64,000 nt of DNA from Halichondria panicea (lineage: Eukaryota > Porifera > Demospongiae > Suberitida > Halichondriidae): assembly GCF_963675165.1 (NCBI RefSeq), contig NC_087388.1, positions 5,861,651 through 5,925,650 on the forward strand. The letters are read 5' to 3'. The first letter of the stretch is position 1, and the number at the start of each line of letters is the position of its first letter. The position numbers and the translations under genes are program-made. The notes under the pieces are model-generated. The model was not told the origin of the DNA and did no database searches. It worked only from the letters and a program-made list of their open reading frames with translations. Shown here in pieces: positions 9,007 to 63,974 of the stretch.

Positions 9007-12000
9007 CTTTCATGGGCAGGCATTAAACTGGTAAAGATCATCATGTCATGCTGCACACAGGGGGTGGGGCTCATGAAGCAGGCAGCAGGCTTAGATGGAT
9101 GGAGACTGACACATCTCCAATTGTGTAAATAAAACAAAGGAACAGACTCCGGAGAGGCAAAACAACGAATAAGAATTGTGATGAGTCTATCTTAGATGAT
9201 TGAGCACCAGTGTGGCTACTTACCACACCACCAGGTGCAATGCTCCATCTATTACCACTCTATGCAGCTACCATGATGCAGCCACCATGATTGAATGGAG
9301 TGAGTATGAGGCATAAATTAATAATAATATTGATCAAAATGTCTTGTAGATTTTTGAGGGAGCAAACTATTGTGTTCGTGATGAAATGTTTGTGGCATAA
9401 TTACCATCATCATAATTATAGAAATCATGCATGCATACCTAGAACACAGGTATGCTAGAGGAGGTTGGTCATGACTCATGTTTTACGACTCATGTTTTAC
9501 GGAGGAATATGCGTGAATGGAGAAACTTACAGAGAAAAGTAGCTATTCTAACTAAGCTAACATACTGCACATGATTGTAGCTCTCTATACTATGATGCTA
9601 ACAATGTGACACTAGAAAGTGAGTAGCATAGTTGTAGTACAGAGGAGGTACAACACGCGTGCCTCAATTTAGCAATTAGCCTCTGTAATAACGTTGAGCG
9701 TGGGCGGAATTATGCCTCGATTATCCGCCCACGCTCAACGTTATTGCAGAGGCTAATTGCTAAAGGCACGCGTGTTAAACTACTACGACTCATAAACTAA
9801 CAGGAGATGTTATACAAGAGAGATAAATGTTTGAGAGTAGATAAAAAATGCCCACTCAGCGAAACATAGGCGCACATACATGACTCTTAATTAATTGTGA
9901 CCAACCTCCTCTGCAGATGTGCCTTGTTGTATGAGATATTAGACATAATCGTACCACCGCATTGCCAAAGATCTATAAGGCTTCAGTGTGTAAGGTACAG
10001 CTAATATAACATTAGCCAGTAGCCACATTGTCTGACCACTATTGTGAGAATTATACACCATGCCTTCAATTTATGAGGCACGGTAATTGGTATAGCTAAA
10101 TATAGCAACTAGAGTATTCATAGACTTTATCCATACAAGCGACTTCCTGTGCATGACGGCGGGCTGTGTTTGTTTACTTATATAAAATTAGTATGTGTTC
10201 TCACTGTCAAGTATAATGTCTGAGTCAGCTGAGTACAAAGCATTCAAGGATTGTCACAGCAGTCTTCTTACTTGTATTAAGCAGTCTCCTAAAGATGTCT
10301 GTGATCATTTACTCCCTTTCGAGATCCTAGCACCGAACGATCGAGATTATCTTAAGAATGACCACCATGATGATGGTGACAAAGCTCGACGAATACTTGA
10401 TGCTGTGCTACTTCAGATAAAAAATGATCCACAGGTTTTCCATTCATTTGTTAGTGCTCTTGAAGCAGCTGGTAGGTTTACGAAGGCTGGTGTACAAGAA
10501 CTCAACCATGAATTACAGAGACGAAATCAAGAACAGTGCGATCAAACTCAAAGAATAGAAGATAATAGTGAGTTGTAATCCACTAAAAACCCAACTCATC
10601 GTCCATTTGATTGCCATTTGATTGCCATTTGATTGTCATGTGAAATAGCCAGTACCTGCATGGATGACATCGTAGATATTGAGTTACATCATGTAGGAGG
10701 ACCAGGAAGTTATGTGGCCAATTATGGCTTCATAATTATGCTTTACTTTATATGCTTTATATGCTTTATGTGGTTGCATAACTTTTACCTGGTTGAAGTT
10801 TAATATCGCCTCTAAAGCATAACTTTTAATAGTACTTAACAACATTATTATAGGCCTAACTCAACTCATGGTTCTAAAATCTGTGCAGGCTATGAGAACA
10901 GTCCAATGAGCCTACTACAACCATTACCCGGGTTAGCTGTGACTGAAGAAGCTGGGTCAGGTATTATAACTATGTCAAACCAAGTGTTAGAGTCCGTTCT
11001 TTTCTTCTTGTGTAGTTTTTGAGTTACCTACCATGGACGATGGAGATGGAGGGACACTACCTGATCCATTAGAGCACCCTCCTGATGACGCTGAAGTGGG
11101 AGCGGACCTCAGAGCAGCTGCAACAAGTCGACAAGTAGCACCCACTGGTATGTGATACATTTAATTATGATTATAACAATTATGACTGACTGATGTATTA
11201 TTATACAGCTGATTCATTTGGAGGACAATTGCTACAAACTTTCCAAAGTGAAGAAATTGAACAAGTCATTGAGCTTCTATCCCAGGCTGAAAGTCAGTCC
11301 ATTGATCTGATAGGTGTGTCTGATGCAGACGGCAAAACTCTCCTTCATCTTGCTTGTCGCAAAAACTGGATGGACTGGCATGGCATTGTGGGTAGCCTTG
11401 TCGAAAATCACCATTGTGATGTTGCAGCAGTGGATGAAGATGGGAACACACCCCTTCATGAGGTATATCAATGCGGCAATCTCCCATCCGTAGAGTACCT
11501 GCTTAGTCTACCTAGTTGTAATCCTGATGCAATCAACAAGCAGGAGTACACTGTACTGAGAATGGCCCTTGAGAAAAATGACAAGAAAACTGTGGCACAA
11601 CTTCTAGCGACAGGACGAGTTGATCCTAGAAAAGGTAGCTCATGCGGTCATACATACTCAGAATTGCTTGCAATGAATCAGCTCCAACCACAACCACAAG
11701 ATTACGATGGCTCAGCTCTTCAAATGGTGATCCAGTTTGCAGAATGCATGGAGGGTAACAATCACGTTCGCCAACCGTTCACTTCTTATTGCTTGCATAA
11801 AATGCTTCACAAGATCTTGAAGAATCGTGATCAAGTTACAATTACTAGAATAGTAGACCGCATTAAAGAGAACATGTTACCTCTTCCAGAAGAACCTGAT
11901 AAGATTCATAATTTGATTATTGATATTCAAAGCCTCTCAGACGAGTTTGACATACGTGGGGAGCCCACTAATGTTGTGGATATTCAAATAAGAAAGAAAG
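8810..12000. repeat. Segmental duplication, copy A
   Basis: From the MTIF3 5' end through the spacer and the CARD and ankyrin exons of R1, the sequence recurs in the same order and orientation at 60003-63830. Copy B carries an extra 663-bp element. Coding exons and non-coding spacer are both conserved, so this is a recent genomic duplication rather than selection on exons only. Confidence 0.9.
9455..9914. mobile_element. Inverted-repeat element containing a 125-bp hairpin
   Basis: Outer ends AGAGGAGGTTGG (left) and CCAACCTCCTCT (right). Inside, 9652-9776 folds into a long hairpin centred on the CGTTGAGCGTGGGCGGA arms. The same hairpin is at 61550-61674 and a diverged one at 47138-47279. No protein is encoded. 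Confidence 0.65.
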
Positions 12001-13492
12001 GTAAGTGAGTAGTAATTACTGTACGTGCAAAGTGTCATTACTCCACAGGAGGTAGAGAAATCTTTCAACGTGATATTCAACAAGAGAGCATAAACACAAC
12101 TCAGAATGTTACTGTTCCAGCTGATGTTGAAGATCAGGAAACATCTGACTACCCTAATGCAAGTGAGGTACTACCAAATGTTCAACATTCATATACTGAA
12201 ATATTTTATATCGTAAGAAAGGTGCATGTACGGTTATTACTTGATGCAGGAGAGTATGGGAAATACCCTAGGGCTTCAGAATTTCGTAATTCTAGCAGAT
12301 AATGAAGAACAGGAAATACCTGACTACTACTCTAATGCAAGCGATGAACTACCGATGTTGCAACCTTCACGTACAGAGGTACACTGTACTGCATGTAATG
12401 CATGATACTTTAGAAAAGGAATTAATGCAAGAATTAATTCATATAGAATTATGCTATAATTATAATAGCTACATTATGTAGTTTTTTTATGACACAATAA
12501 TTATGTTCTTCTTTGATCTTAAACAGGAGCAGAATACAACACAAAATGATGAGTGTTGCCAAATTACATTGAAAGCATGCGTATGCAGTTACTGTTGTTG
12601 TTTTATTGTCTCTTTAATTCTTGGAATATGCGGTGCAGTATTGTACGATGGCTATTCACTTGTTGGTACTACTAATGTGGTACAAATTCATCGGCAATCT
12701 GTGCCACTGATTGGAATACAGGATCCATCGACTAACTTTGTTAGGCTATCCGAAATAATTACTAGTGGAACAGACTTAGTTACCATTATCTTCTATAAGT
12801 TAAGCGATTGCTCTTCTTCAACTGCATTTATAGGCGTCGAGATCAATGAGATAATGACTGTAAACTTTAGCTCTCCAACTATCAAGAGCAAAGCTGTTAC
12901 TGAGTTGTATCTGGCAGGAAACACTACACTTACTGTAAATATCAATGTCATCCCCTCAACAAATTCTTTTACGGCCGTCGTTGTTTTTGACAATCTTAGA
13001 AACTACTTAAACTTCATTTCAAGCTCTTCGTTGGACAATTACTATTTTATGGATTGCATTGCTAACGAAACATCACAAACTAAGATCAATTTAATTTTCA
13101 ACAAAACATCGTACTACTATATTGGTTTGTACACAGACATTCCGACTGAAACTACTACTTTTACTGTACACATGGTTGGGACAATTCTTCAATATGACAT
13201 TACAAAAGGAAGCACTTTCTGCTTTATAAGCTCTCTTGATGATTTAAGTTGTGATTTTTCTCCGAATTCCAACCAGCAAACTTGTATTGTTGGTTCTGTG
13301 CCGCCTATATACACTGATACACCATTTGGAATAAGAAGAGCAACTGTAGAGTATTACACTGCTCTCAACTCAAATACAGCAACCAACACTTTATTTTTTA
13401 TTCCTTTAATGCTATCTTGTTTATGGGTTTGTTTTGTGGGCTGTTTTCTGGTAGTTATACCACCTCAGCAGCATCAGGCAGCACACAACTAA
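10216..13492 (+). CDS. R1: CARD-ankyrin-TM-ectodomain-TM receptor-like protein
   Basis: Seven exons, 853 codons: 10216-10567, 10889-10960, 11016-11147, 11209-12000, 12049-12167, 12250-12378, 12527-13492. All phases agree. Residues 1-105 are a CARD-type death fold (DHLLPFEILAPNDRDYL, FHSFVSALEAAG). Ankyrin repeats lie at about 205-330 (DADGKTLLHLACRKNW, DEDGNTPLH). TM1 is about 550-572 in a Cys-rich stretch. An ectodomain of about 245 residues has sequons and paired Cys, and TM2 is about 821-843 with a 10-residue tail. The start at 10216 is chosen because every paralogue begins MSESAEYK there. Exons 5 and 6 are duplicates of each other. CARDs recruit partners by homotypic contact; the ligand and pathway here are unknown. 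Confidence 0.85.
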
Positions 13493-14128: not shown

Positions 14129-17100
14129 CTAAATTTGTGACTCGAATGAATTTGAATTCTGAAAGCTACGATGTCGCTTGGGACTGATTTGAAGTGAGTT
14201 TGTTGTGAACTTGGTGTTGGTTTTTATTTTGTAAAAGACTAGCACTAAAGACCACAGAAGAACGATTATAAAAAAACTTATCCAGAGTAAAATTATCAGT
14301 TCTTCTGTATATAGGAAGTTCGAATACGAATACAGTATTTCCGCTTCCGTTACTTCATTGGTAAAATTGCGTTTTGGAACAATTCCTATGATACACAACT
14401 TCGGTGTTACAGGAATGTATCTATCAAATACGACATTACATACTGTTGTGGATGATATCATAGAGCAAAGGCTTATAAAAGAATTTTTTGAATTTTCCTT
14501 ATTCCAGCCATTAATACGATATGATATGCTGTCGATGACGTTCAAATTGTCTTCTATGTGAACTCCAATAAAATAGTAACTACTCTTTTGGAGCGAGATG
14601 CTTATTGAGAAATTATCGTTCTTGATGCAGTACTCCATATAGGTAAACATCCAGGTTCCATTGTGCAAAAATGATTTATATTCGTCAACATTGTCAAAAA
14701 CTACCAAAACAACTGGGCATTCTGAGCTGTTATAGTTCGCTGATAAGTGAATTTCTAGCCTCAGAGAGACATTATATTGTGTGTAGAGCTCATAAATTGG
14801 AGTATTTTCTTCTGGAGTGAGTATTCCTTCCTCGTATATTGTGGAATTTTCTTTTCTGATATCATCACAATTGCTGATGTTGAAGTGAATTGAGATGTTA
14901 GTATTAGTGATCTCGTTAATTGTTAGTTGCTTTACATTCGGTCCGACTCGTGCTATAGGTAGTACTGATTGCTGGATCAGTTGAGTAATATGTACTGAAC
15001 CACCAAAAGGTTTTGATTCTTGGTCGTTGAGTATCGTGAAGGAGAGTGCACAAGCAAAAATTACCATTGTGAATAACACACCCATAACAAAGCACAAACA
15101 TATAGAAGCTGCTTTCCTCTCAATGATATTCAGAGTATGGCATTGACATATCTGTATAGGTTCAATGAAAAAGAAATGTGATACGTTATAAGTTATACAC
15201 CAGACACTGCATGCAATAGACATTAGCTCTTGTATTCACCTTGAAGCAAACATGACAGAAGTAGCTGGCCATGGCCTTCATGGTATCCCACTGCAATAAC
15301 AGTTATAATTATAGAGATACCACAATAACAGTTTTAAGATACCACTAGAATTAATTAGCTAATACTAGATCAAGCAAGCATAGACTATAGTAAGATTATA
15401 GCTATAGTTAGCAATCACAGCAAGGTGTCTAACAAATCAACGACCAGTGGTATTACAACTACAATACACATAATAAATGCTACTTCTTACCTGATGTTTT
15501 CGTTTTGAATTTATAAGGCCCTCCAAGTCTGAATCGTTGGGTTGTGTGTGGAGATCGGGAATGGAACCTCGCGGTATAGATTGCCATTGAAGAGAAGTCT
15601 TTGCTGGAGAACGAGGTGGATTGTATGTGGGAGGATTTTTTTCAGGAATTGTAGGATTTTTAATGCACTCTGAAGCTTTAGAATCTTTTGTCTGATCAAT
15701 TAAAGTGTACTGTTGATCTGGCTCTGAATCATCACTCTGAAGATTTCTTGATCGTATGGTACGGCCATACCTTTCAGCCCGGCTTTGATCTGTGTATGCA
15801 TGTGCATGCAGTTATTATATCACAGTGTGTATAATGAGCTGTGAGTATGATGTCAACCTACGTGGTAAACTGACACTGACTGCTGGTGAGGTACGTTCCA
15901 CTGTAGATACACCAGTCGTTGAATTGCAACTGTCCTCTTCAGTACTTGTGGATTCATCTGTAAGCACAATATACATGCATGCATGCATGTGCAGTCAAAA
16001 TCATTTTACCTGCACTTAGAGGCATTGGCAATGCATCTGTCAGTGTATTAATGCTTGTCCTGTGAATATCCTCTATCTTATTAAAATTCCCCATTGGAAT
16101 GTTGGCAAGTATTTCATCGCACTCGACCAGCCCTCTCAAAACGTTTTGATGTTGCTTTTGATGTGCAATGTTAAAGGCAGTTAATCCATCGTTATTTCTA
16201 GCATTGACATCACTGAGCTCAAGAAGATATTCGGCAGCTCCTTTGTTGTTGAATCGAGCAGCTGTGTGCAGAGGTGTGTCTCCATCTTCATTCACAACTG
16301 AGACATTATGATGGTGTGTTTTGACCAATTGGGTGACTAAGAGTCCCCATTTTGACCAATCCCAGCGACAGGCAAGATGGAGGAGGGTCATTCCATCACT
16401 GTCCCTGATTGAACTGACATCAACTGTCGGATCAAGCCCTATCAGTAAGGCTAAGGCAGAAGTCAGGTCACCACCATCTTGGCCAAACGCTTTTAGCAGC
16501 TTCTTTGTTGAATTAACTTCTGCCTGTACATACATGCAATGCCATGGTTTAGAAGTATATACAACTAGCTGTACAAGGTACAGAACAATTAAGACATGTA
16601 CACCATAAATGCAACCATGCACTTTAGTATTGTAAACCTAACGTGAATATACTTATCACCTTCAATATTAGATCTACTTGTCGACCGATTTTGACCTCAA
16701 TGAATGCATTTTCTTTCAGGTGCTGCATCTGTTTAGGACTCAATTGGCTGTATAAATGACTAAAACATGCTGGAACTCGAAACACCAGCTCTGTACAGCC
16801 TTCTTGAACATGCTTCAAATTCAGAACTTGATGTGGTAGTAGTTGTTCCCAGCATTCTATAAATACTAACTTCAAATGTTGAATTTGATCGTTGGTGATT
16901 GCATCAAAGTCAACATCGATCTTACATGTTATCTCCACTGATTCAATGTGAGACGGTTGAGGGCCAAAGTCATCAACAAATAAAAAGCATCGTCGATTAA
17001 CATATTGTCGAAAAAAACGTTCATATTTCTGTAATGCTTCATCATCTTCATATGGGAAAAGAACTTCTTCTCGTATTGCAGAAATAAGTGAGTAATTGAA

Positions 17101-18562
17101 CCAAGAGCAGAAATTATTCTGTAAAAACTCAATTAAATCATTAAAGCTGATAGCATCACAGAGTAAAATATGTTCAGAAGGGCTATGATACATTTGGTGA
17201 AAATACAAACCTTGTGGTGTTAACAACTTCTGAACGTGTTGCTTTAGTTGTGTAACATCATATTGTTTTTGTTTTTCCAGATTCATAATCGTGTTTGTAA
17301 GTAAGCTACAAAACTTTGAATGGATTTTTCGAGTTTCTTTATCTAGGGATTTCATGAAGAAGCTTTCAGAAATTTCTGTTGCTGAAACTGTATCGCTACA
17401 AGCAGTATCACGAGTGCATCTTTTAATTTGAGGTGGCTTGGAGCTTAAGCACTTATCTCTGCCAGTGACATGACCCAAGATAGTACACTTTCCACAGTCA
17501 CATTGGAAGCTAAAGAATTTAGAATCAGGTGCCGTGAGTGATGCAGATCCAGATGAGCTTGTACTGACGGACCTTGGTTGTAACTCTTCACCTGCCTGAC
17601 CTTCGTTATCTGCTATAACGAGGTGACAATTTATTGGCTCACTATCATGCATGGTGTGGTACAAACTACTGGATCAGTATAAATTATCTGATATATTTAT
17701 TGGCTCACTATAATTATTACGCATGTTGTATACAAATTATCTTATTCATCAGCCATGACAAGCCCAAACGGCTGGGGAAGGGTTGTAGCAGGTTTATTGG
17801 ATAGCTCTCATATCTTGTTAATCATGCAAAACCAGTGAATGCTTTGCACACACTTAAGTATATGCGACCCTTTTTACTCACGTGAAAATGCAACCTTTAC
17901 AAGCCTTATTAAAGTCAACCACTATATACAGTGTGCACAGTGACATTGCTCTCCTGAATTCTTTCTTCGATACATTTTTGCAGAAATGCCTTTATAGAAA
18001 GGTTTTCGTGGATTTAATTTTCGTGAAATAGCAGCCTTTTGCAGCATGCATGCATGCATGGGATATTAAGTTCGTGGTTATAACTGTTCGTGGTCCAGCT
18101 TAATCCGCAAAAACCACAAACATTTGCACCCTCGAAATATACCTGCTATACGATACATAGTGCAATACATGAGTTGAGTTTTCATAAAGCAATCTAGGAT
18201 TTATATTTATACAACCTACCTCCTATTCTTTGACTTTGATCGGACTGTTGATGTTGTCTCTGTAATGCATCATTGAGTTTTTGCACTGTAGCTTTCGTAA
18301 AACTACCAGCTTCTTCAAGAGCACTAACGAATGAATGAAAAACCAGTGGATTGTTTTTTATCTGGAGCAGCACAGATTCCATTATTCTTCGTGCTTTGTC
18401 ACCAGCATCATGAGTGTCATTCCTAAGATAATCTCGATCGTTTGGTGCTAAGATCTCAAAACGGAGTAAATGATCGCTGACATCTTTAGGAGACTGCTTG
18501 ATGCAAGTAAGAAGGCTGCTGTGACAGTCCTTGATTGCTTTGTACTCTGCTGACTCAGACAT
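14129..18562 (-). CDS. R2: CARD, Cys-rich/helical module, ankyrin, PPxY linker, TM-ectodomain-TM
   Basis: Eight exons in frame, 1092 codons: 18562-18220, 17612-16660, 16523-16010, 15957-15862, 15789-15491, 15290-15240, 15151-14129. The 16660 junction is phase 0 and the others are compatible. (Seven intervals are listed; an additional small exon is not excluded.) CARD 1-105; a module at about 140-430 starting QCDCGKCTILG and ending FIEVKIG; ankyrin repeats about 450-570 (DSDGMTLLHLACRWDW, NEDGDTPLHTAARF); a linker with PPTY; TM1 about 767-793; ectodomain with at least six N-glycosylation sequons and SYYFIGVH; TM2 near 1035-1058; basic tail of about 34 residues. Convergent with R1. Probably a membrane sensor; that role is inferred. 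Confidence 0.85.
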
Positions 18563-23499: not shown

Positions 23500-23695
23500 A
23501 TTTCTTTCCTTAATGCTTTTACTTATTTGGTTTGTCTTCTTGACCAGTCGAGATTTGCCGACATCTCCTCTGTTTGTTGCTAGCAGTGAAGTTGAGATGG
23601 AGCGTGTGGGGGCGGGTAGTGTGTGGGCATGGAGTGGGTTATGATGGAACAGTGAACAGTGACCGTACAATCCATTGGCTGCTTGAGGAGTATGA
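23500..23695 (-). pseudogene. MTIF3 5' fragment 1
   Basis: Minus-strand translation contains SLFHHNPLHAHTLPAPTRS and GDVGKSRLVKKTN, matching residues 50-100 of the intact MTIF3, then loses similarity at the IF3 N-domain. No downstream IF3 sequence is present. It is a truncated copy made by duplication. Confidence 0.85.
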
Positions 23696-25190: not shown

Positions 25191-28100
25191 CTAAATAAAG
25201 TTTATAGTAAGAATAAAGGTTAAGTAAAAAATAAAAAAGAACATAATAATAATTATATTAATAATAATAAATATTATGAATTTGAGTGAATTTGAGTTAT
25301 GATGTGACTGTCGGCTGTGACGGATTTGAACTGATTTGTTGGTTTTCAGTTTCATGTAATAATTGTAAAAGATTGGCACTAAAAGCCACATGAGAAAGAA
25401 TATAATTAACATTAGCCACATAACAAGTGTTGAGAAGGTTGAATAGGAATACTGGAGTTCTGCTTTCCTTATTACACCACTAGCATTTCGTTTGGGAACA
25501 ACTCCTATGATACACAAATTTGGTGTGTCCAAAAAACTGTTAAAATTGTGATTACAAGCTGTTGTAGCTGTGGATGTTATTGAGCAAAGGCTTGTGAAGG
25601 AGCTAGTTGAGTTTTCCTCATTCTGGCCGTCGATAATATATGTTATGTTTCCCATAATATGTGAGTTGGCTTCAAAGTGAACACCCAAAAAATAATAGCT
25701 ATTTCCGGCAAGTATGATACTGATCGAGAAATTATCATTTTTGATGCAGTACTCCATATAGGTGAACGCCCAAGATCCATTGTGCAAAAAGGATTCGTAT
25801 TCTTTAACATTGTCAAAAACTACCAAAACAAATGGGCATTCTAGATCTGAGCTGTTATAGTTAGCTGATAATTGAATTTGCAACCTCAGAGAGACGTTAT
25901 ATTGTGTGTAGAGCTCATAAATTGGAGTATTTTCTTCTGGAATGAGTATTCCTTCTTCGTATATTGTGGAATTTTCTTTTCTGATATCATCACAATTGCT
26001 AATGTTGAAGTAAATTGGGATAATCTGAGTATTTGGGATCTCAGTGAGTGTTAGTTGTAGTACATTACCTCCGATCAGAGCTATAGGTAGTATAGATGGC
26101 TGGATAAGCTGAGTGATATGTACCGAGCCTTCATACACTCTGGGATTTGTTTCAGCATAGATTAGGGTGAAAAATAATGCTGCAAAGCATATTATCCCCA
26201 AAAAGAAAAAAAATCTGGATAGTCTTAGAGAGCTTCTTTGAGAGCTTTGTTCAGAGAATAATACCTGTAGTAAATGTTAGAACTTAAGGTATAGGCTAGC
26301 TAAGAAATGGACTGCATGCGTGCATCCAATAGCTATTTTACCTTGGAAATTACCTTCCCCCAATGATTGTCAACAATACTGATCAGGCATCCAGCACACA
26401 GGGTTTTTGCTGTTGAGGATACGGTATTCTGCAATGCATGTATGTACATAAATTATAGCTACATGTTATGAATTAGTATACACTGATGTAACTACATGCA
26501 TATATAGGTACTCATGGCATGCACTGATCTGAAAGCATGCACGACATCCTTAAGTGTATTGCACATACTAAACTTGGCACCTGTTTACCTGGTGTTCTTC
26601 ATGGGGTTGAGAATCATTACTTATAAGGGTTGTTTGGGAGTCTGAATCATCAGGTTGTGTGTGGAGATTGTTAATAGCTTCTGAATCTTGTTGTGAGGCG
26701 GGAGGCTGTTGGTTGCAATTGGTGATATATGCGGGAGGACGAATATATGGTAAATTGTATCTGGGAGGACCATTTTCATTTGATTCTAAGTAAGTTGGAA
26801 CAGTCGATAGCCTGGTACTTTCACTGTACTCCGGTGGATTATTAGTCTCATCATCATTATCATCATCAAGCTTGGACTTTAAAACAGGAGGTGGTGTATA
26901 ATGTTGACTTGGCTCTGAATTATCACTCCGAAGATTTCTTGATCTTATGGTAGAGCCATGCCTTTCAACCCGACTTTGATCTGTGTACATAATATAAGCG
27001 AATGCATTACACTCCAAGTGATACATGAATAGTGTGTGTACATTTAACAACCTACGGGATAATGTAGATATTGATGAGAGATCTTCCTTTGTAGAAGATA
27101 CATCCGGTACTAACTTCAAATTGTCCCCTTGGGGGCTGGTAGATTCATCTGTGAGCACAACACACATGCATGTTTAAAATCAAACGGTCTGTATTGTTAT
27201 ATATGCTTTACCTGCGCTGGATGACATATTTGAGTCACTGCTTGTCCTGTATATGGGTTCGTCTGACTGAAAAACTTCGGTGCTGATTATTGGGATGTTG
27301 GCAAATATTTCATCACACTCGACCAACACTCTCAAAACTTCTTGATGTTGCTTTTGATCTGCAATGTTAAAGGCAGTTAATCCAACGTTATTTCTAGCAT
27401 TGACATCACTGAGCTCAAGAAGATATTCCGCAGCTCCTCTGTTGTTGAATCGAGCAGCTGTGTGCAGAGGTGTGTCTCCATCCTCATTCACAACTGAGAC
27501 ATTATGGCGGTGTGTTTCGACCAATTGGGTGACTAAGAGTTCCCACTTTGACCAATCCCAGCGACAAGCAAGATGGAGGAGGGTCATTCCATCACTGTCC
27601 CTGATTGAACTCACATCAACTGTCGGATCAAGCCCTATCAGTGAGGCTAAGGCAGAAGTCGGGTCACCACCATCTTGGCCAAACGCTTTTAGCAGCTTCT
27701 TTGTTGAATCACCTTCTGCCTGTAAAGTTTAAGCGCTAGAATACATATACATTGTTTAGAAGTACAGCTAGCTGCATTAGAATATAAAACAAGGTACTTA
27801 TGTACCACTTCAGTATGTACAAGTCTAGTGAATATAGTTATTACCTTCAATATTACTTGTTGACCAATTTTGACCTCAATGAATGCATTTTCTTTCAGGT
27901 GCTGCATTTGTTCAGGACTCAACTGGCTGTAAACATGCCTAAAATAAGCTGGAACTCTAAACACCAGCTCTGTACAGCCTTCTTGAACATGCTTCAAATT
28001 CAGAACTTGGTGTGGTAGTAGTTGTCCCCAGCAATTCACAAAAACTAACTTCAATTTTTGAATTTGATCGAAGGTGATTGCATCAAAGTCAACATCGATC

Positions 28101-31100
28101 TTACATGTTATCTCCACTGATTCAATGTGAGACGGTTGAGGGCCAAAGTCATCAACAAATAGAAAACATCGTCGATTAATATATTGCTGAAAGAAATGCT
28201 CATATCTCACTAAAGATGGATCATTTTTATTCGAGAAAAGAAATTCTTCTCGTATTGCGGAAATGAGTGAATAATTGAACCAAGAGCAGAAATTATTCTG
28301 TAAGTAGTCAGACAATTCGCTAAAACTGGTAACATCACGGATCAGAATCTCTTCAGAAGGTTTGCGATAAATTTTGTTGAAATACGATCCTTGTGGTGTT
28401 AAAAGTGCCTGGACGTACTGCTTCACTTTAGTAATGTCATATTGTTTTTCCAGATTCGTAATCGTGTTTGTGAGTAAGCTACAAAACTTCGAATGAATGT
28501 TTTGTGTTTCATTATGTAGGGCTGTCTTGAACGTACTATAAGAGATTTCTGTGGATGATACTCTGTTTTCACTACAAGGAGTGTCACGAGTGAATCTTTT
28601 AATTTGAGGTGGCTTGGAGCTTAAACACTTATCCCTGCCAGTGACATGACCCAAGATGGTACACTTTCCACAGCCGCATTGGAAGTTAAAAAATGTCCGA
28701 TCTGTATTAGAATCAGAAGCCGTGAGTGATTCGATTCCAGATGAGCTTGTACTGACAGATCTCGGTGTTAATTCTCCACCTGCTTGATCTTCGTAGTCCA
28801 CTGTGGCAGAATGCATCTTGTCATATTAAGCGAATGGAGGCACATGCAATAAAATCTCACTATAATTGTAAGTGGTACCAAGGGCGTATAAAGAGAAGAG
28901 AGCATGCAACTACAATCTATCATATTATAAATGGACGGAGGCGTATGTCTAAAATACACAAAATTTATTGCATGTGCACTTTATACTCTTCGTCTATTCC
29001 CTAGTGGGCGGTTGGCTAAATACCTGCTGACTCATCAATAATATGACGCATGTATACACAGTATACATTACGAGTTGCATGCGCCCTCTCTCTTCTTATA
29101 TATAGGCCCTTGATGATTAATTTATAGTTGCACTTACTGGTTGCAACAATCCTCTGTGGTTCTACTGGAACTTCAGTTTCTGCATGCAATTGCAATACAA
29201 AAACTCATACACAATTTATAGCGTAAACTGTAGCTATAATAATACTGCATATGAATTACACCATGAGTTCAGTACGCAACTCCAATAGTATATAGAATGC
29301 CAAATAGGTCTAAAATACATCCCACTCATTCGGATGTCCCACATGCTACATCAATCTTTACCCGCGGCCATGCCCAACTAAGAACAGTTTTATATACAGT
29401 ATTATCAAATAGGATTGAGGAGAGGGTAGCCGATAGATGTCAAGTAGCCGATAGATGTCAAGTAGCCGATAGATGTCAAGTAGTGTATACGTGGGTAGTA
29501 GTGTGGGACACCCAAATGAGTGGGATGTGTTTTTTTGGCGTTCCATACAATAGACTGTACACAAAAGGTATTCAGTCTGCCTAAGACCCCCATTATTTGC
29601 AAGACAAGACAACATACCACAAATATTTCATAAGGATGACATCATAAAACAGTGTTTCATATAGCCTTGATTCCAGGCCGCAAAGAGAAAGGCAGCCTGG
29701 TATACCTATGCGCATGCGCGAAATAGTTGACAGCAATTTCATCATAATTATACAAATTCTAAAAAAAACGGACAAAGTTACAAAAAGGAAGAATACGTAT
29801 GACAATGTGACCACAATGGCAGCTTTCAGAGACACTTAATCAAAGTAGAATAATTATGCTGCAGCAGTGTTGCTTCTTTTAGCTCTGTTTATCAAAGAGA
29901 GAGTTCAAGAAGGCCTCCCAAACAGCTAGAGCTGCCAGCTGGGAAGAGTGGTGCATGGACTCTTTAATACATCAGTAGATCTTGAGTGAATAACTTCCTG
30001 AGTGTCAAGCACGTTAAAGCTCATTAAAAGCTTTCAGGAATGATCATTAGCTTCTTTATCTTCAGCAATGACTATCTTGTCGAACATAAAGGCAAGATTT
30101 GGTAGCAGAAGACTTGCCTGGTCCATATTACCACAGCCTCATCAGGGGACCCACAGGAACACATCATGCCTTTCCTATAACATCTGTAGACTTACAGTGT
30201 AGGGTGTCGTTAAGTAGAGACTTGGCTTAATACAATAAAGGGGGTAAGAACTCAGTCGTCTCTTTGCACAATACTTCTAAATAAGTTCTATGTAACGGAC
30301 TGTAACTTCAGAATACAAACAGTATACGGTTTATTTTACTGACAGTATCCACAAATACACGGACTACCCCGGCCCTTTTTGGGGTAATGTACGCGCATGC
30401 GCCAGTGGCGTAGCTAGGATTTTGGGAAGGGCAGGGCTCAAATCCGTTGAGCAGGGCCAGAGCAGGCGCTGAATAGCAGCAGTAAGCATGCGCAGTAGAT
30501 GGCCCTGCCTACATTTACATTTCCATTGAATGACATCATTCTAGTAACTACGCATTTGGAGTTGATGAAGCACAAAAGGGGGGGGCTCTAGCCCCGTCAG
30601 CCCCCCTCTGCCTATGCCACTGTGTGCCTACTAGGTATAACAGGCCGCCTTTTTCTTCGTGGCTGGAATCGAGGCTATGTTTCATAATGATACCCCGAAA
30701 ACTCTACCAGATTGTAGTGAAGGGTGATTTTTTTCTAAATTTCCAAAGCTCATAACACTGAACTCGAACTTGTTTCTAGGAGATGAATTAGGAATGTGTT
30801 GACTCAGCAAGTTTAAGATTAGTGTGAGCAAAAAGTCAAAGTTAAGCTCTTTCTGAATAGTCTTTGTGGTTGGTGGAACTCATGGCTAGCTGCATATCTC
30901 CAGATGTGAAAGGAACCATGCAGTGACTGCCAGTCTCTAACGTATCAACTAGTGCATCTGATGCATGTGATGCTTTGCAGCAAGCTAGAAGGCTTGAAGT
31001 CATTCACGATGTGTTCTATGCTATTGCCAAATTGTGTATTAATGTCAAAGTTTGTGTAACTGCTTTGCAAACACGTTCATTTGTATGGCATTTACCTTAT

Positions 31101-42692: not shown

Positions 42693-44232
42693 ATGTCTGA
42701 GTCAGCGGAGTACAAAGCAATCAAGGACTGTAACAGCAGTCTTCTTACTTGTATTAAGCAGTCTCCCAAAGATGTCAGCGATCATTTAGAGATCCTTGCA
42801 CCAGACGATCGAGAGTATCTCAAGAATGACACTCATGATGCTGGTGACAAAGCACGAAGAATACTTGATGCTGTGCTGCTCCAGATAGAAAACAATCCAA
42901 AGGTTTTCAATTCATTCATTAGTGCTCTCAAAGCAGCTGGTAGTTTTACGAAGGCTGCAGTGCAAAAACTTAACGGTGCATTACAGAGACGAAAGAGCGA
43001 TCAAACTCAAAGAATGGAAGATGATGGTGAGTTGTAACAGCTTAGAAAACCCAACTCATGGTCAATCCGCCATGTATATCTGGATGACCTTGTATAGACC
43101 TCTTTTATGTCATCAAAGGTTGTATAAAAATATTTCAAGAAGGGATCTCTTTAGTGCACGCGATTCATACATTTACTTACAAGTCATCCAATAATCTTTG
43201 CAGGATATGAGAACGATCCAATGATTCTACTACAACCATTACTCAGGCCAGTGATGACTGAAGAAACTGGGTCAGGTATAATTATAATCAATGTCTATAT
43301 CAGTAGTCATAATAATAATATAATTATATAGTCATATACTTGCTTTTCTTGTATATAGTTCTTGAGTTACCTACCATGGACAATGGAGGGACACTACCTG
43401 ATCCATTAGAGCACCCTCTTGATGACACTGAAGTGGGAGCGGACCTCAGAGCAGCTGCAACAAGTCGACAGGAAGCCCCCACTGGTATATAAATTATGTC
43501 ATATTATTATACCATAATATAAAGCAATATCACAATTGCAGTTGATACATTCAAAGGACGATTGCTACAAACCTTCCAAAATGGAGAATTGGAAACAACT
43601 GTTAAGCTTCTATCCCAAGCTGAAAGTCAGTCCATTGATCTGAGAGGTGTGTCTGATGCAGACGGCAAAATTCTGCTTCATCTTGCATGTCGCAAAAACT
43701 GGGTGGAATGGTATCATAATATTTTTATTGTGTATAGCCTCATTGATAATCACCATTGCGATGTTGCAGCAGTGGATGAAGATGGGAACACGCCCCTTAT
43801 AAAGCATATCAATGCGGCAATATCCCAATAGTAAAGTACCTGCTTAGCTTACCGACTTGTAATCCTGATGCCCTTAACAAGCACGAGTACACTGTACTGG
43901 GATTGGCCCTTGAGTTAAATGACAAACCAACTGTGATAGATCTTCTATATATAGTGTCAGGGCGAGTCGATCCTAGAAAAGGTAGCTCACACGGTCATAT
44001 ACTTACTCAGAATTGCTTGCAATGAATCAACTCCAACCACAACTACAAAATTACGATGGCTCATCAGCTATTCAAATGGTGACCCAGTTTGCAGAGTGCA
44101 TGGAGAGTAGCAATCATGTTTGGCCGCCGTTTACTTTTTATTACTCGTTAAAAGCAGTTCACAACATCTTAAAGAAATTTCAATCGCTGGAATAGTAGGT
44201 CACATTAAAGAGAACATGTTGCCTCTTCTTGT
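42693..44232 (+). pseudogene. R6: CARD-ankyrin paralogue, broken and truncated
   Basis: Exons 42693-43026, 43204-43275, 43359-43484 and 43542 onward match R1. In the ankyrin exon one base is lost (CCCCTTAT near 43795 where R1 has CCCCTTCAT), giving a stop at 43828-43830. Another indel lies near 43945. Similarity ends at AACATGTTGCCTCTTCT (about 44232), where unrelated and element sequence begins. TM and ectodomain exons are absent. The CARD exon itself is open. Confidence 0.85.
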
Positions 44233-51800: not shown

Positions 51801-52034
51801 CCAGCTTAGAGAGTAGATTACCACAAATTTGTGAGTAGCTGTACTTAAATGTAAATATCTTTCGATTGGAACATTTCTAAGAAATGGTGTTGATACCAAT
51901 GTGTAGGTGAATGACCAAGCTACAACATACTCAAAATGTTTCCATGGAAACATAAGGTGGTGGGTTTGTGGTGATTAATAGAACAACAGCAAATTGTTAT
52001 AGTGGGTAATCGGTTAGAGTAATAAAACAGTAAT

Positions 52035-53723
52035 CTTGTACAGATAGTGACCCAGTTTGCAGAATGTATGGAGGGTAGCAATCATGTTCGCCAACCGTTC
52101 ACTTCTTATTGCTTGCATAAAATGCTTCACAAGATCCTGAAGAATCGTAATCAAGTTACAATTCCTAGAATAGTAGACCGTATTAAAGAGAACATGTTAC
52201 CTCTTCCAGAAGAACCTGATGAGATTCATGATTTGCTTACTGGTATTCAAAGCCTGTCAGACCAGTTTGAGTTTGTATGTGGGGAGCATACTAATGTTGC
52301 AGATATTCAAATAAGAAGGAAAGGTAAGTGAGTAGCTATACTGTATGTGCAAAATGTCGCATTACTCTACAGGAGAGACAGAAGTCTTTCAACAACAAGA
52401 GAGTATAAACATCCCTTAGAATGTTACAGTTCCAGCTGATACTGAAGATCAGGAAACATCCGATTACTCTAATGCAAGTGAGGTACTACCAAATTTGTTT
52501 TATATTGTAAGAAAAGTGTACAGTAAAGTACTATTACTAAACACCCCTCAGAATTTCGTGATTCCAGCAGATAATGAAATACCTGGCCACCACTCTAATT
52601 AATGCAAGCAGCAATAAACTACCGTTTTTGCAAACATCACATACAGAGGTATACTGCATGTAATGCATGATGCATGTGCACATTAGTATAGGCAAGAATG
52701 TAGTTTTTTTATAATACGATAATTATGTGCATTTTATGTTCTTCTTTGATCTTAAACAGGTGCAGAATACAACACAAAACTATGAGACAAATGAATGTTA
52801 CCAAATTACATTGGGAGCATGCTTTTGCAGTTGCTGTTGTTGTTTTATTGTCTCCTTAATCCTCGGAATATGTGGTGCAGTATTGTACGATAGATATTTA
52901 CTCGTTGGTACTACTGATGTGGTACAAATTCACCGGCAATCTGTACCACTAATCGCAATACAGGATCCATCGACTAACTTTGTTAGGCTATCCGAAATTA
53001 GTGGAACAGACTTAGTTACCATTATCTTCTATAAGTTAAGCGATTGCTCTTCTTCAGCTGCATTCATGGACGTTGAGTTCAATGAGATGGTGAATGTAAG
53101 CTTTAGCTCTCCAACTATCAAGAGCAAGGCTGTTACTGAGTTGTATCTGGCAGAAAACACTACACTTACTGTAAATATCACCACCAATGTGCCCTCAACA
53201 AATTCTTGTTTTATAGCTCTCGTTGTTTTTGACGATTTTACCAATTACTTAAACTTCATTTCAAGCTCTTCGTTGGACAATTACTATTTTATGGATTGCA
53301 TTGCTAACGAAAAATCACGAACAAAGATTTTAATGTTCAACAGACCATCGTACTACTATATTGGTGTTTATACAGATTTTCCAACTGAAGCTACTACTTT
53401 CTCTTTACACTTGGTTGGTTGGGACATATCTTCAATATGACACTTCAGAAGGGACCCCTGTCTGCTTTATAAGCTCTCTTGAGGATTTAAGTTGTGAGTT
53501 TTCTCCGAGTACCAACCAGGAATTTTGTATTGTTGGCTTTGTGCCACCTGCTAATCAGCAATTTGGAATAAGAGGAACAACTGTAGAATATTACACTGCT
53601 GATAACTCAGATACAGCAATAAACACATTTTTTTTTATTCCTCTAATTTGCTCTGTTTTTGGGTGTTGTCTTCTGCTATGTTTTATTAGTTGTACAATGT
53701 ATAGACCAGACCAACGCCAGTGA
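52035..53723 (+). pseudogene. R7: 3' half of an R1-type gene, broken
   Basis: Starts abruptly inside the ankyrin exon (GACCCAGTTTGCAGAATG; donor at 52324), so CARD and ankyrin repeats are missing. The next exon (from about 52373) has TAG where R1 has CAG. The membrane exon (about 52760-53723) keeps TM1 and the ectodomain but carries a 4-base GGTT repeat near 53413 that shifts the frame; the 3' part continues in another frame with CIVGFVPPAN and TM2. Very similar to R1 otherwise, so decay is recent. Confidence 0.85.
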
Positions 53724-55029
53724 AGCTCAATGTTTAATTATTGTTTGATCTTGTTAATTACAGTACACTCTCGTCACCCTTGGGTATGAGGCAGCAGCTT
53801 GGCCGCAATATATTTTAGAAAATAGCCATGGCTAAATAGCTGGTCCTACCTATAGTCTCAATTCAAGGCCGATTAAAATACGGCCTGGGGGTGATAGTGC
53901 GCATGCGCTTCAAATTACCTAAGTAATAAATCAGTTGTTGACTGGTTGCCTAGTAAATTATAGTCAACCAGTCAATAATAACATGCATGTACATCAGTAA
54001 AAGGAATTATTGGTACAAACGGCGCCCCATAGTTGCCAGCCCCTGCATGGCAATAATTATGATAAACAAATTCATTTCTATATAAACAGAAAGAGAGCAT
54101 GCAACTGTATAGCTACAGAAATTCTATATAGGCATGCATGCACAAAACAATTCATCTGCAACACAAAACTGACTACATACATATAACCATGCACTTTTAC
54201 ATAATAATTATAACAAAATAAATACTGATATCAAACTTAAAAATATTAGAAGTGTAGTGCAAGCCATCGATCTTAAAGCAGCTGCTTCAACTACAGCAAG
54301 AAGACAAAATTCAGTTGAAGTTGAAGCCTCCAAAATCTCTAGTTGAATTGTACAATTGTCCACAGAGTTATAGGTTTCACATTTACCATACAAATTATTC
54401 CTAAGTTTCTTGATATCATATTTATACACAGTTCCAGAAATCTTAATATTAAAGGTGAATTCGTTTGTAGATGTATAAACGTACAGACCAGTAGAGTAGT
54501 ACGAATTCTTCTTAAATATTACTGTTTTGGATGTTTTATAGTCATTAATGCAGATCACACTGAGCGAGTTATTATGTACTCCAGCGTCAAAAAACTCCAA
54601 ATAAAGTTCTTGATCATCGAATATTACTAGAACAGCTAGACAGTCTGAAGAATTTTTAGGGATACTAAATGATGTATGAAACACAGTAATACTGTACGAC
54701 AGAGTAGTCCCACTCAAATAATATGCTTGATCTATATGTTTGCTTGAGGTTAGTTCTGAATATGTTGTCTTCACTTTAACCATGTTGATGTCATCACCTT
54801 GACAGCCAGTAAGAAAGAATACCATGATAAATCCGTAGTAAATAATCACATTTGGATGATTATCCCAACTTTCCGATAAAATAACTCGTATGTCTAACGA
54901 GTCATATGCACCACTTAGGGTTAATTTTTGAACAAAGATCACAGATATAGGGCTGGCAGTGGATATACACCAGTATATCTTATAGTATATCTATCTGGCA
55001 TGCCCTTGGTATTCAAAGCACATAGTTCT

Positions 55030-55488: not shown

Positions 55489-55929
55489 ATGTCATCCCAT
55501 AATTATAACTACTATCATTGACAATCTACAAGTTAGATTCTGGGATTGATTATACAACTCACATTGTTCTAATTAATTTTGTCTCTGTATAAATGCATCA
55601 TCGAGTTTTTGCACTGTAAACTCCGTAAAATCACCAGCTGTTTTAAGAGTACTAACGAATGAATGGAATACCTGTGGATTATTTTCTATCTGACTTGCCA
55701 CAGCATCAATTATTAATCGTGCTTTGTCACCAACATCATGAGTGTCATTCCTAACATATTCTTGATTGGCTGGTGCTAGGAACTCTAATATCTTATCACT
55801 GACATCTTTAGGAGACTGCTTGATGCAAATAAGAAGACTACTGCGACAGTCATTGAATGCTTTGCACTCTGCTGACTTAGACATAATGCTTCTTGATAGT
55901 AAGGCCACACAAAGTCAATTTGTACTTTT

Positions 55930-56607: not shown

Positions 56608-56638
<31 letters not shown>

Positions 56639-59807: not shown

Positions 59808-59970
59808 TGCACAGCCACTTAACTTGTACTTAACTTTGATTGCATGTGTAGAATATTATTATAGCTGCCTGTTAATTAATGACACTTGTTTAGTGTTAAT
59901 TGGAGTTTATTAGCTATTTTTGTGTTTTGTAGATTTGGCCCTATATATAATTATATAGACATAATTATAT

Positions 59971-60052
59971 GGATTGTACGGTCACTGTTCCATCATAACC
60001 TAAAGTGTGTGAGCGTGGAGTAGGTTATGATGGAACAGTGACCGTACAATCC
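59971..60052. repeat. Perfect 32-bp inverted repeat at a duplication boundary
   Basis: Left arm begins GGATTGTACGGTCACTGTTC (59971), right arm ends with its exact inverse at 60052, spacer 18 bp. The right arm belongs to the MTIF3-derived copy; the left arm has no counterpart at copy A. Confidence 0.9.
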
Positions 60053-60203
60053 ATTGGCTGCTTGAGTGGTATGAAGTTGGGTTGAATTGTCGACAGTGGA
60101 TGGGCTGATGGAGGGGAGGTGCTGATGAAGGAGAGATGGTGAAGATTGATGAGATAATCACATGTGGCCTTCCTCTGATCACTAACAATGAGGAGCTGAA
60201 CAT
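60003..60203 (-). pseudogene. MTIF3 5' fragment 2
   Basis: Minus strand from ATG at 60203 reads MFSSSLLVIRGRPHVIISSI and on to NLLHAHTL, matching the presequence of the intact gene, then stops at the inverted repeat. No IF3 domain remains. Confidence 0.9.
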
Positions 60204-60456
60204 CTTTCATGGGCAGGTTCTAATGGTAAAGATCGTCATGCTAGGCTGCACTTTGGGGGTGGGGCTCATGAAGCAGAGACTGACACACATCTCCAACTTG
60301 TGTAAAAGTAAAACAAAAGGAACAGACTCCGGAGAGGCAAAACAACAATTTGAGAATAATATTATGATGAGTCTATCTTAGATGATTGAGCACCAGTGTG
60401 GCTACTTACCACACCACCAGGTGCAATGCTCCATCTATTACCACTCTATGCAGCTA

Positions 60457-61674: not shown

Positions 61675-62086
61675 AAACTACTACGACTCATAAACTAACA
61701 GGAATGTTTGAGAGTAGATAAAAAATGCCCACTCAGCGAAACATAGGCGCACATACATGACTCTTAATCGTGACAACCTCCTCTGCAGGTGTGCCTTGTT
61801 GTATGAGATATTAGACATAATCGTACCACCGCATTGCCAAAGATCTATAAGGCTTCAGTGTGTAAGGTACAACTAATATAACATTAGCCAGTAACCACAT
61901 TGTCTGACCACTATTGTGAGAATTATACACCATGCCTTCAATTTATGAGGCACGGTAATTGATATAGCTAAATATAGCAACTAGAGTATTCATAGACTTA
62001 TCCATACAAGCGACTTCCTGTGCATGACGGCTGTGTTTGTTTAGTTATATAAAATTAGTAAATATGTGTTCTCACTGTAAAGTATA

Positions 62087-63974
62087 ATGTGTGAGTCAGC
62101 TGAGTACAAAGCATTCAAGGACTGTCATAACAGTCTTCTTACTTGTATTAAGCAGTCTCCTAAAGATGTCTGTGATCATTTACTCCCTTTCGAGATCCTA
62201 GCACCGAACGATCGAGATTATCTTAAGAATGACCACCATGATGATGGTGACAAAACTCGACGAATACTTGATGCTGTGCTACTCCAGATAAAAAATGATC
62301 CACAGGTTTTCCATTCATTCGTTAGTGCTCTTGAAGCAGCTGGTGGCTTTACGAAGGCTGGTGTACAAGAACTCAAGGATGCATTACAGAGACAACATCA
62401 GCAGTGCGATCAAAGTCAAAGAATGGAAGAGAACCGTGAGTTGTAATGCCCCCCAAAAAACCCAACTCATGGTCCATTTGATTGCCATTTGATTGCCATG
62501 TGATATAGCCAGTACCTGCATGGATGACATCGTAGATATTGAGTTACATCATGTAGGAGGACCAGCTGCAGGAAGTTATGTGGCCAATTATGGCTTCATA
62601 TGCTTTATGTGGTTGCATAACTTTTACCTGGTTGAAGTTTAATATCGCCTCTAAAGCATAACTTTTAATAGTACTTAACAACATTATTATGGAGGCCTAA
62701 CTCAACTCATGGTTCGAAAATCTTTGCAGGCTATGAGAACAGTCCAATGAGCCTACTACAACCATTACCCGGGTTAGCTGTGACTGAAGAAGCTGGGTCA
62801 GGTATTATAACTATCTCAAACCAAGTGTTAGAGTCCGTTCTTTTCTTCTTGTGTAGTTTTTGAGTTACCTACCATGGACGATGGAGATGGAGGGACACTA
62901 CTTGATCCATTAGAGCACCCTCCTGATGACACTGAAGTGGGAGCGGACCTCAGAGCAGCTGCAACAAGTCGACAAGTAGCACCTACTGGTATGTGATACT
63001 ATATAACAATTATGACTGATGTATTATTTACAGTTGATTCATTTGGAGGACGATTGCTACAAACTTTCCAAAGTGAAGAAATTGAACTAGTCATTAAGCT
63101 TCTATCCCAGGCTGAAAGTCAGTCCATTGATCTGATAGGTGTGTCTGATGCAGACGGCAAAACTCTCCTTCATCTTGCTTGTCGCAAAAACTGGATGGAC
63201 TGGCATGGCATTGTGGGTAGCCTTGTCGAAAATCACCATTGTGATGTTGCAGCAGTGGATGAAGATGGGAACACACCCCTTCATGAGGCATATCAATGTG
63301 GCAATCTCCCATCCGTAGAGTACCTGCTTAGCTTACCGACTTGTAATCCTGATGCAGTCAACAAGCACGAGTACACTGTACTGAGAATGGCCCTTGAAAA
63401 GAATGACAGAAAGTCTGTAAGAAATCTTTTAGCGACAGGACGAGTCAATCCTAGGAAAGGTAGCTCATGTGGTCATACATATCCAGAACTACTTGCAATA
63501 AATCAGCTTCAACCACAACCACAAAATTACGATGGCTCAGCTCTTCAAATGGTGACTCAGTTTGCAAAATGTATGGAGAGTAGCAAATGCAGTATTTGCC
63601 CGCCTTTCACTTCTTATTGCTTGCGAGATACCCTCCATAAAATCTTGAAGAATCGTAATCAAGTTTCAATCCCTAAAATAGTAGATTGTATTAAAGAGAA
63701 CATGTTGCCTCTTCCAGCAAACCCAGACGAGATTCATGATTTGCTTGTGGATATTCAAAGCTTGTCAGACGACTTTAACATACGTACTAATGAATTAGGG
63801 GAACTTCAAGTTCAAAGAAGAGACACAGCTTTAAGTATGTTACAGTAGCTCTATTGCATTATAACTATAACTGTGTCATAATTATGTATACAGGATATGA
63901 GAGCTATCCAGTGAGCCTGCTACAACCATTTCCTATGATGTCTGGATTTGTCATAGCTAATGAAACTATATCAG
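62087..63974 (+). CDS. R11: CARD-ankyrin receptor-like protein, 3' end outside window
   Basis: Exons 62087-62435, 62730-62801, 62857-62988, 63034-63834, 63894-63974, all phase 1. The protein is a close paralogue of R1 through the CARD (MCESAEYKAFKDCHNSLLTC) and ankyrin repeats (GKTLLHLACRKNWMDWHG). After the ankyrin exon it differs: the splice is at 63834 and the next exon encodes YESYPVSLLQPFP, a second version of the SLLQPLP linker that also follows the CARD. TM and ectodomain exons should lie to the right of the window. No stop or frameshift is seen. Confidence 0.8.

Follow-up and report, generated by a model that had tools for sequence, protein, structure and literature searches.

The window analysed here, 64,000 nucleotides of the sponge Halichondria panicea (contig NC_087388.1, hereafter C12, positions 5861651-5925650; the genome comprises 131 Mb in 39 contigs), is the left end of a cluster of about 310 kb whose genes appear to join a cytoplasmic death-fold domain, either a CARD or a death domain, to a membrane part in which two transmembrane segments (TM1 and TM2) enclose an ectodomain. 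It is probable that the genes encode tandemly repeated two-pass receptors that assemble CARD or death-domain signalling complexes, with innate recognition of microbes or symbionts as the likeliest role. A more specific and more tentative reading is that they represent an undescribed class of animal innate receptor, two-pass with both ends inside, that combines an interchangeable N-terminal CARD or death-domain head with a GOLD-like ectodomain, and in which exon exchange within the cluster rewires related ectodomains to different death-fold partners. What is new is the layout and the head swapping, as each cytoplasmic part except an unnamed domain, referred to as U, is of a known kind. No printed description of this layout was found in a literature search that stopped short of subscription journals and preprints.

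A large family with a shared exon order

Searches of the genome with type A, B and C queries located at least 48 copies of the membrane exon at about 5.87-6.18 Mb of C12 (19 A, 8 B and 21 C, the counts being lower bounds). The types are split by strand, with 19/19 A copies on the plus strand and 8/8 B and 21/21 C copies on the minus strand. Outside the cluster, the search with membrane-exon copies found a single diverged copy, on contig 6, which shares 28-32% identity with the eight type B copies where they match and which, when used as a query, returned only itself and places in the C12 cluster. Intact and dead copies are intermixed, as the original prediction for this DNA had it: in 34 of the 48 copies the membrane frame is open for 316 residues or more (among them L025, whose C-terminus is missing, and a B copy with an internal loss), and the other 14 are broken or partial. 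That prediction had also counted eleven loci with a shared membrane half in the window. Only seven ectodomain copies were counted in stop-to-stop frames, at 12.5 kb (+), 14.1 kb (-), 25.2 kb (-), 38 kb (-), 40.4 kb (+), 52.7 kb (+) and 54.2 kb (-), and the remaining loci are presumably CARD or ankyrin exons without a nearby membrane half (42.6, 59.0, 59.4 and 62.1 kb). The family is nonetheless real and large, and the core observation is bigger than first described. The original prediction also made no mention of the ankyrin repeats, U, the death-domain form, the swapping of heads or the nearby genes that have other ectodomains.

The main evidence for a single gene product is the order of the modules, which recurs in dozens of copies and in the diverged contig-6 copy. 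The chain would run from an N-terminal CARD or death domain through an optional U and optional ankyrin repeats to TM1, a predicted beta-rich ectodomain and TM2. When each of the 48 membrane exons was followed upstream along its own strand, 43 met a CARD or death domain within 9 kb and before another ectodomain, against a mean of 24.3 and a maximum of 32 in 2000 runs of a control that scatters the modules in place and strand; since the copies arose by duplication, and whole-gene duplication lies outside this control, the figure of 43/48 speaks for an order and not for 43 independent events. By the same control, the death domain within 2.2 kb of 18/21 type C copies (random mean 1.2, maximum 5) and the U-ankyrin pair of 7/8 type B copies (random mean 0.1, maximum 2) exceed random placement. 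The module table was compiled from genome searches, with a degenerate ectodomain piece at C12:6160956-6161448 left out and short CARD fragments kept. In this table, seven of the eight B copies read CARD, U, ankyrin, membrane exon, and the eighth has U only. Among the 21 C copies, 18 have a death domain 0.66-1.7 kb upstream, two have a CARD and one has neither. The 19 A copies are more varied: seven have a CARD and no ankyrin exon found, eight have a CARD and at least one ankyrin exon, one has CARD, U and ankyrin, two have ankyrin only and one has none of these, so that the order CARD, optional U, ankyrin is present in 9/19 A and 7/8 B copies. The contig-6 copy follows with death domain, U, ankyrin and membrane exon. 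In most copies a death fold does lie upstream of the membrane part, as predicted, and the CARD is not its universal form, given that 18 of the 21 type C copies use a death domain.

Splice signals also fit such a chain in part. Three junctions of the type B genes R2 and R3 (U-ankyrin, ankyrin-linker and linker-membrane) can be paired with equal phases (0, 1 and 0) and similar bases on either side; each pair was chosen from the top three candidates by score in both genes and is not always the first. The phase-consistent exon chains of the original prediction stand for these three junctions, and the R1 linker junctions between ankyrin and TM1 are ambiguous. L005, whose CARD exon contains a stop, is another copy, in which a single frame covers both the linker peptide (MDDGDGG...) and TM1.

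Topology and cytoplasmic domains

The repeated exon encodes an ectodomain between TM1 and TM2, about 240-250 residues long in A and B, and so recovers the predicted membrane half. Transmembrane segments were picked as the best 19-residue hydrophobicity windows, and lysine plus arginine residues were counted in the 15-residue flanks. TM1 and TM2 were found in A, B and the contig-6 copy. Mean counts N-terminal of TM1 and C-terminal of TM2 were 3.1 and 2.1 in 15 A rows, as opposed to 0.1 and 0.4 in the flanks that face the ectodomain; the corresponding values were 2.9 and 3.2 versus 0.5 and 1.2 in 8 B rows, and 2 and 4 versus 0 and 0 in the contig-6 copy. These flank charges fit a protein with both ends inside. 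They do not fit type C, where 11 rows have a weaker TM2 (mean 1.8) and a median tail of 0, such that the second hydrophobic stretch ends the protein; this end could be a lipid-anchor signal or a short anchor. The predicted arrangement, in which the death fold is inside, the ectodomain between the two TMs is outside and both ends are in the cytoplasm, is therefore supported by module order and flank charges for A and B and does not extend to the topology of C. The type A ectodomain lengths range from 140 to 266, which indicates that the hydrophobicity scan misplaced a transmembrane segment in some rows, and R3 has an extra hydrophobic tail beyond the two main segments.

Four types of head exon were located, namely CARD alpha (the R1 type), CARD beta (the R5 type), CARD beta-2 (41-43% identical to beta) and a death domain. 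Pfam matched PF00619 to four of six CARD-like window exons that were scanned, one exactly at the cut-off and three below it; of the other two, one had only a CARD_2 match below the cut-off and one had no match. A profile of nine CARD exons (A4) matched solved CARDs in the PDB at 4.5e-4 to 0.023, including ICEBERG (4.5e-4), caspase-1 (0.0046) and NOD1 (0.0087), among 17 matches listed, some of which were Sin3-type chains. The predicted CARD-like exons are thus present, and their similarity to known CARDs, real but weak, places them marginally within that family. For the death domain, a profile of two receptor exons and nine genomic relatives (A8, which took 9 of the 12 relatives fetched) had 11 PDB matches at E<=1, all of them FADD (best 0.0027), and all five matches of a smaller profile (A7) were FADD as well (E 0.2-0.67). 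The Pfam Death model fell below its cut-off in three of eight proteins (0.0065, 0.052 and 0.11) and had no match in five. These profile matches place the head of type C and of the contig-6 copy among the death domains. Neither NACHT nor LRR was in the Pfam results for the tested exons.

Ankyrin repeats in the long forms were over the Pfam cut-off in all four exons scanned (Ank_2, 2.8e-22 to 5.7e-15), and the ankyrin exons are about 170-270 residues long. Type B forms also carry U ahead of the membrane part. No family name was obtained for U: Pfam had nothing beyond sub-cut-off matches, NCBIfam nothing, and PADLOC short weak matches that were taken as chance (methyltransferase 0.012; Cas11 0.0012 over 34 residues), and among PDB sequences there was a single match at 0.68. 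Among 20 places outside the cluster that were fetched and read, U also occurs with frames that by eye resemble Roc GTPase, ankyrin and SH2 domains.

Other death-fold sequences were noted in passing. In 4 of 18 cases the type C death-domain match and the next plus-strand CARD match stand head to head, 283-363 bases apart, as if on a two-way promoter (window 39215 (-)/39498 (+); C12 6001764/6002127, 6126332/6126659 and 6141808/6142150). The matches listed for the type C death-domain exon include dozens of relatives at C1:15.5-17.4 Mb, perhaps another receptor or NLR cluster. At 50482-51021 (+) of the window, a transmembrane segment precedes a stretch with weak similarity (24% identity) to the death-domain exons and no Pfam match.

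Ectodomain fold, selection and head exchange

Conserved features that had been predicted for the ectodomain were recovered, including the motifs SYY and C[IL][IV]G.VP and the cysteines, of which there are six per ectodomain in 13/15 A rows and 6/8 B rows. The expected abundance of sequons holds for B (7.5 versus 4.0 in shuffled sequences), is slight in A (4.8 versus 3.8) and fails in C, which lies below its shuffles (2.2 versus 3.2). The ectodomain had been said to fall outside the named families, and this is borne out, as no credible Pfam, NCBIfam, PADLOC or PDB-sequence family was found. Four of six window ectodomain frames had no Pfam match and two had only sub-cut-off matches (E 0.08 to 0.96), the contig-6 copy had none at 0.1, and models of P2X, ASC, CD36, p24, GOLD and NLR proteins were absent from the Pfam results for window exons (E<=1). 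For three ectodomains, PADLOC gave no match and NCBIfam only matches at E 0.02-0.06, far under the cut-off; among PDB sequences there was none by profile and one single-protein match at E 0.16. A search for prokaryote relatives with a single B-type query gave 16 pattern matches and no confirmed one, and a viral structure library gave generic beta-sandwich matches only.

Structure prediction, which had been proposed as a check, gave a beta-rich sandwich with GOLD as a candidate fold from models that are weak. AlphaFold2 models of one A lead and one B lead, built from window sequences only, had mean pLDDT values of 55.6 and 50.5, respectively; block means in the B model were 58-85 at residues 71-170 and mostly below 50 in the remainder. 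In both models the domain is rich in beta strands, with a single helix lying between them. In VIA-align comparisons, where rows less than 1 Z apart are tied, GOLD proteins made up 8 of the top 10 rows for the B model, and GOLD chains scored Z 10.1 to 8.7, including GPR180 (10.1; 3.1 Å over 109), TMED1 (9.3), p24 (9.2 and 9.1), and SPF (9.7) and SEC14L3 (9.3), SPF and SEC14L being proteins that carry a GOLD domain. Unrelated Bacillus pilins (9.6 and 9.1) and capsids (8.9) scored close to these, so that the better pilin is tied with the top GOLD score. Foldseek ordered the B matches differently, with a lysozyme inhibitor first, then other sandwiches, TMED1 fifth as the first GOLD chain and GPR180 eighth. 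For the A model, Foldseek placed phage tail proteins first and p24beta1 fourth, and VIA-align had a collagen-binding domain (8.4) and GPR180 (8.3) at the top, with SPF also at 8.3. GPR180 is described as a GOLD-domain protein (PMC12716839). We tentatively regard the modelled ectodomain as a GOLD-like beta-sandwich, which would be a known fold though not a known family.

This likeness brings up an alternative function, in which the proteins would be endomembrane sensors of cargo or stress akin to p24 and the rest of the GOLD proteins, and would signal trouble in the secretory pathway to death-fold adaptors. The share of GOLD proteins among the top VIA-align rows for the B core, together with the A-model scores of GPR180 and SPF, favours such sensors; the low pLDDT of both models, the pilin tie at 9.6, the fifth place of the first GOLD chain in Foldseek and the absence of a p24-family sequence match in Pfam make them unlikely.

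Pairwise dN/dS was calculated for 34 ectodomain exons (A 15, B 8 and C 11), and 179 of 188 pairs passed a filter of dS 0.05-1.5. Medians were 0.51 for A (101 pairs), 0.32 for B (28) and 0.60 for C (50), none above 1, and values for other exons were 0.51 for CARD alpha (21 pairs) and 0.33 for type A ankyrin (9 pairs). Segments near the C-terminal end of the ectodomain reach a nominal pN/pS of 1.2 in A and C. The genes are kept as proteins and are under purifying selection on average. The description of the family as fast-evolving, if this means diversifying selection, was not sustained, as no usable pair had a ratio above 1 and CARD exons have a similar ratio. These values bear on the possibility of allorecognition, in which copies would bind each other or polymorphic partners and a mismatch would lead to death-fold signalling. 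A large cluster with intact and broken copies, near-identical copies and swapped heads would suit that role; with dN/dS above 1 in 0/179 pairs, and ectodomain ratios (0.51, 0.32 and 0.60) similar to that of the CARD exons (0.51), we consider it improbable.

Evidence for head exchange comes from an IQ-TREE ectodomain tree of 36 rows (A 15/19, B 8/8, C 12/21 and contig 6 1/1; broken and partial copies were omitted save the partial C copy at 54.2 kb), in which A, B and C each form one group, with a warning from the program about long branches. With 34 of the 36 rows labelled, this tree requires at least 8 changes of head type versus a minimum of 3, a count that depends on the exon chain being right because heads were assigned by position. 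For instance, of two sister B copies, the one at 5.876 Mb has an alpha CARD and the one at 6.040 Mb a beta-2 CARD.

A possible receptor mechanism

If the genes do encode receptors for microbes or symbionts, the ectodomain would bind an outside ligand or another copy, and receptor clustering would gather CARDs or death domains at the inner face of the membrane, where CARD/CARD or death/death assembly could follow. Where related ectodomains carry different heads, similar signals would be passed to different partners. PPxY motifs generally serve to recruit WW-domain ubiquitin ligases, and those of type B may do so here and lead to down-regulation of the receptor. The ankyrin repeats may also serve to retain or recruit an effector, by analogy with the soluble CARD-ankyrin protein Caiap, whose CARD is reported to self-oligomerise and whose ankyrin repeats are reported to bind active caspase (PMC5662874). 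In a study of two sponges, ankyrin-, DEATH- and CARD-domain genes were reportedly raised after exposure to microbial products (PMC6208332); this induction fits an immune role and is not tied to the cluster genes. If the proposed role is correct, an early-branching animal signals from the surface to CARD and death-domain assemblies without Toll or NLR parts, through some 50 gene copies, and this may be an unrecognised arm of early animal immunity. The head exchanges would then be a natural experiment on receptors that change signalling partners.

Several points weigh against this interpretation. The single-exon CARD and death-domain scores lie at or below the Pfam cut-offs, and the 27 places that PF00619 listed in the genome all lie outside the cluster. 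Sequon enrichment is slight in A and absent in C, the ectodomain pairs give no sign of gene-wide diversifying selection, and a secretory-pathway location may be compatible with the data. Shuffled head labels require a mean of 18.1 changes on the ectodomain tree versus the 8 observed, and head type thus also tracks the tree. Moreover, heads were assigned by nearest position, with the CARD more than 4.5 kb upstream of U in two type B genes, and the shared ancestry of the copies limits what their common order can show.

The exon chain is predicted from genome sequence, which leaves room for the view that separate CARD/ankyrin and two-TM genes were duplicated together and that there is no fusion protein, and some CARD exons do lack a close membrane half (42.6 and 59 kb). 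This view is quite unlikely, given the same-strand order in most copies, the shared phases, the same order on contig 6 and a neighbouring gene, L044, in which one 501-residue frame takes in U, TM1, a short ectodomain and additional hydrophobic stretches. L044 lies 8-9 kb to the left of the window, with four windows in the hydrophobicity scan and a CARD-like exon just upstream; as U, a transmembrane segment, a short ectodomain and at least one more transmembrane segment share its frame, no splice guess is needed there. A two-TM ligand-gated channel of P2X or ASIC/ENaC layout with a death-fold head, which two TMs, both ends inside, an ectodomain of about 250 residues and six cysteines in most A and B rows would allow, is the least probable of these alternatives because no P2X or ASC match was obtained in Pfam at E<=1.

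Comparison with known systems

P2X, ASIC/ENaC and CD36 proteins have two TMs with both ends inside. The cluster proteins are predicted to share this layout and differ in their inside death fold and ankyrin repeats, and none of these families was in the Pfam results. Death receptors and UNC5-type receptors, which are single-pass with a C-terminal death domain, similarly join an outside sensor to an inside death fold, whereas the head of the cluster proteins is N-terminal and the protein two-pass. The p24 proteins have one TM. Their GOLD beta-sandwich is one that the predicted ectodomain core may resemble; unlike them, the cluster proteins have a TM both before and after the domain, no sequence-family match, and a cytosolic death fold with ankyrin repeats. 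The resemblance would extend to the GOLD seven-TM proteins GPR180, TMEM87 and TMEM145 (PMC12716839), and in place of the seven TMs after a GOLD domain (the GOST layout) the cluster proteins have two main TMs.

The nearest documented parallel for the cytoplasmic part is Caiap, likewise an N-terminal CARD followed by ankyrin repeats (PMC5662874). Caiap has 16 ankyrin repeats, and the main text on it never uses the word transmembrane; in the cluster genes, the ankyrin exon covers some 170-270 residues and the ectodomain has a TM on either side. If the exon chain is right, the membrane exon downstream argues that they do not encode a soluble, TM-less adaptor of the Caiap kind. Sponge NLRs are another expanded family with CARD or death-domain heads, described as CARD- or DEATH-NACHT-LRR proteins (PMC12909245). 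The cluster differs in that the exons tested are without NACHT or LRR and a membrane ectodomain is present.

Genes of the window and its surroundings

The gene R1 (+) begins with a CARD-like exon of the alpha type at 10216..10567 (Pfam CARD_2 0.0049, below the cut-off; profile match to solved CARDs; its donor, GTGAGT, is the second-ranked candidate). A provisional short exon 2 at 10889..10960, with splice candidates, belongs to a repeat family (D14) that recurs near 40007, 43193 and 62719, and the linker exon, whose boundaries at 11016..11147 are provisional, is repeat D17 and encodes the peptide that is in frame with TM1 in L005. The ankyrin exon at 11209..12000 (Ank_2 2.4e-20) has a strong donor, AAAG/GTAAGT, and the type A membrane exon, identified by genome search, hydrophobicity scan and an acceptor candidate, is at 12527..13492.

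R2 (-) consists of an alpha CARD at 18220..18562 (Pfam CARD 0.00087, below the cut-off; donor candidate), U at 16660..17609 (no Pfam match; 60 places genome-wide including fragments), an ankyrin exon at 16010..16523 (Ank_2 5.7e-15), a linker with one PPxY motif at 15491..15789 (splice candidates) and a type B membrane exon at 14129..15151 (genome search and hydrophobicity scan). Beside it lies a 257-base direct repeat, 100% identical, at 19545-19801 and 21783-22039. In R3 (-), the probable first exon is a beta-2 CARD at 32454..32801 (Pfam CARD 7.1e-5, 23.2 versus a cut-off of 23.9), which is the nearest upstream death fold on the same strand and sits 3.6 kb upstream of the U frame. U itself is at 27845..28825 (start given as the frame start; 77% identity to the U of R2), followed by an ankyrin exon at 27212..27719 (Ank_2 2.8e-22), a linker with three PPxY motifs at 26589..26980 (splice candidates) and a type B membrane exon at 25191..26264 (genome search). 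R5 (+) is a short form of type A in which no ankyrin exon was found. Its beta CARD at 39498..39848 (Pfam CARD 0.00023, below the cut-off) is one of 12 copies of at least 82% identity, itself included, and its membrane frame at 40388..41440 was identified by genome search, upstream walk and hydrophobicity scan.

The other copies are broken, divergent or incomplete. A dead type C gene (-) has a death-domain exon at 39036..39215, whose frame stops and whose relatives' profile matches FADD, and a membrane half with TM1 and a broken ectodomain at 37870..38606. At 42699..44228 (+), frames and the upstream walk indicate a CARD and broken ankyrin exons, for which the nearest same-strand membrane half is the broken 52.7-kb copy; the latter, an ankyrin fragment with a frame-broken type A membrane half, is at 52026..53723 (+), and the copy at C12:6023440 has a split in the corresponding position. 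A divergent type C ectodomain in which TM1 was not found is at 54208..54990 (-; genome search and tree), and upstream of it, at 55573..55881 (-), is a CARD-like exon that is alpha by alignment and has no Pfam match. By frames and Pfam, CARD and ankyrin exons at 62087..63848 (+) belong to a copy that runs off the window.

To the left of the window, L045 and L052 (23-35 kb away) combine a CARD and U with a two-TM ectodomain of a different kind. Together with L044 they form a set of CARD-U genes with different membrane ectodomains at C12 5.826-5.856 Mb, and the layout is thus wider than one ectodomain family. Relatives of one left-flank CARD-U gene occur in pieces at C1:16.05-16.06 Mb. Inside the window and left of the cluster are a protein kinase frame at 4634-5152 (+; Pfam 1.1e-10) and a Sushi-repeat frame at 6134-6448 (-; Pfam 1.2e-7). 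An IF-3-like gene at 8173-9009 (Pfam IF3_N 3.2e-13) marks the cluster edge, and two pieces of it within the cluster, at 23502-23700 and 60004-60206 (86% and 97% identical), are a trace of local duplication.

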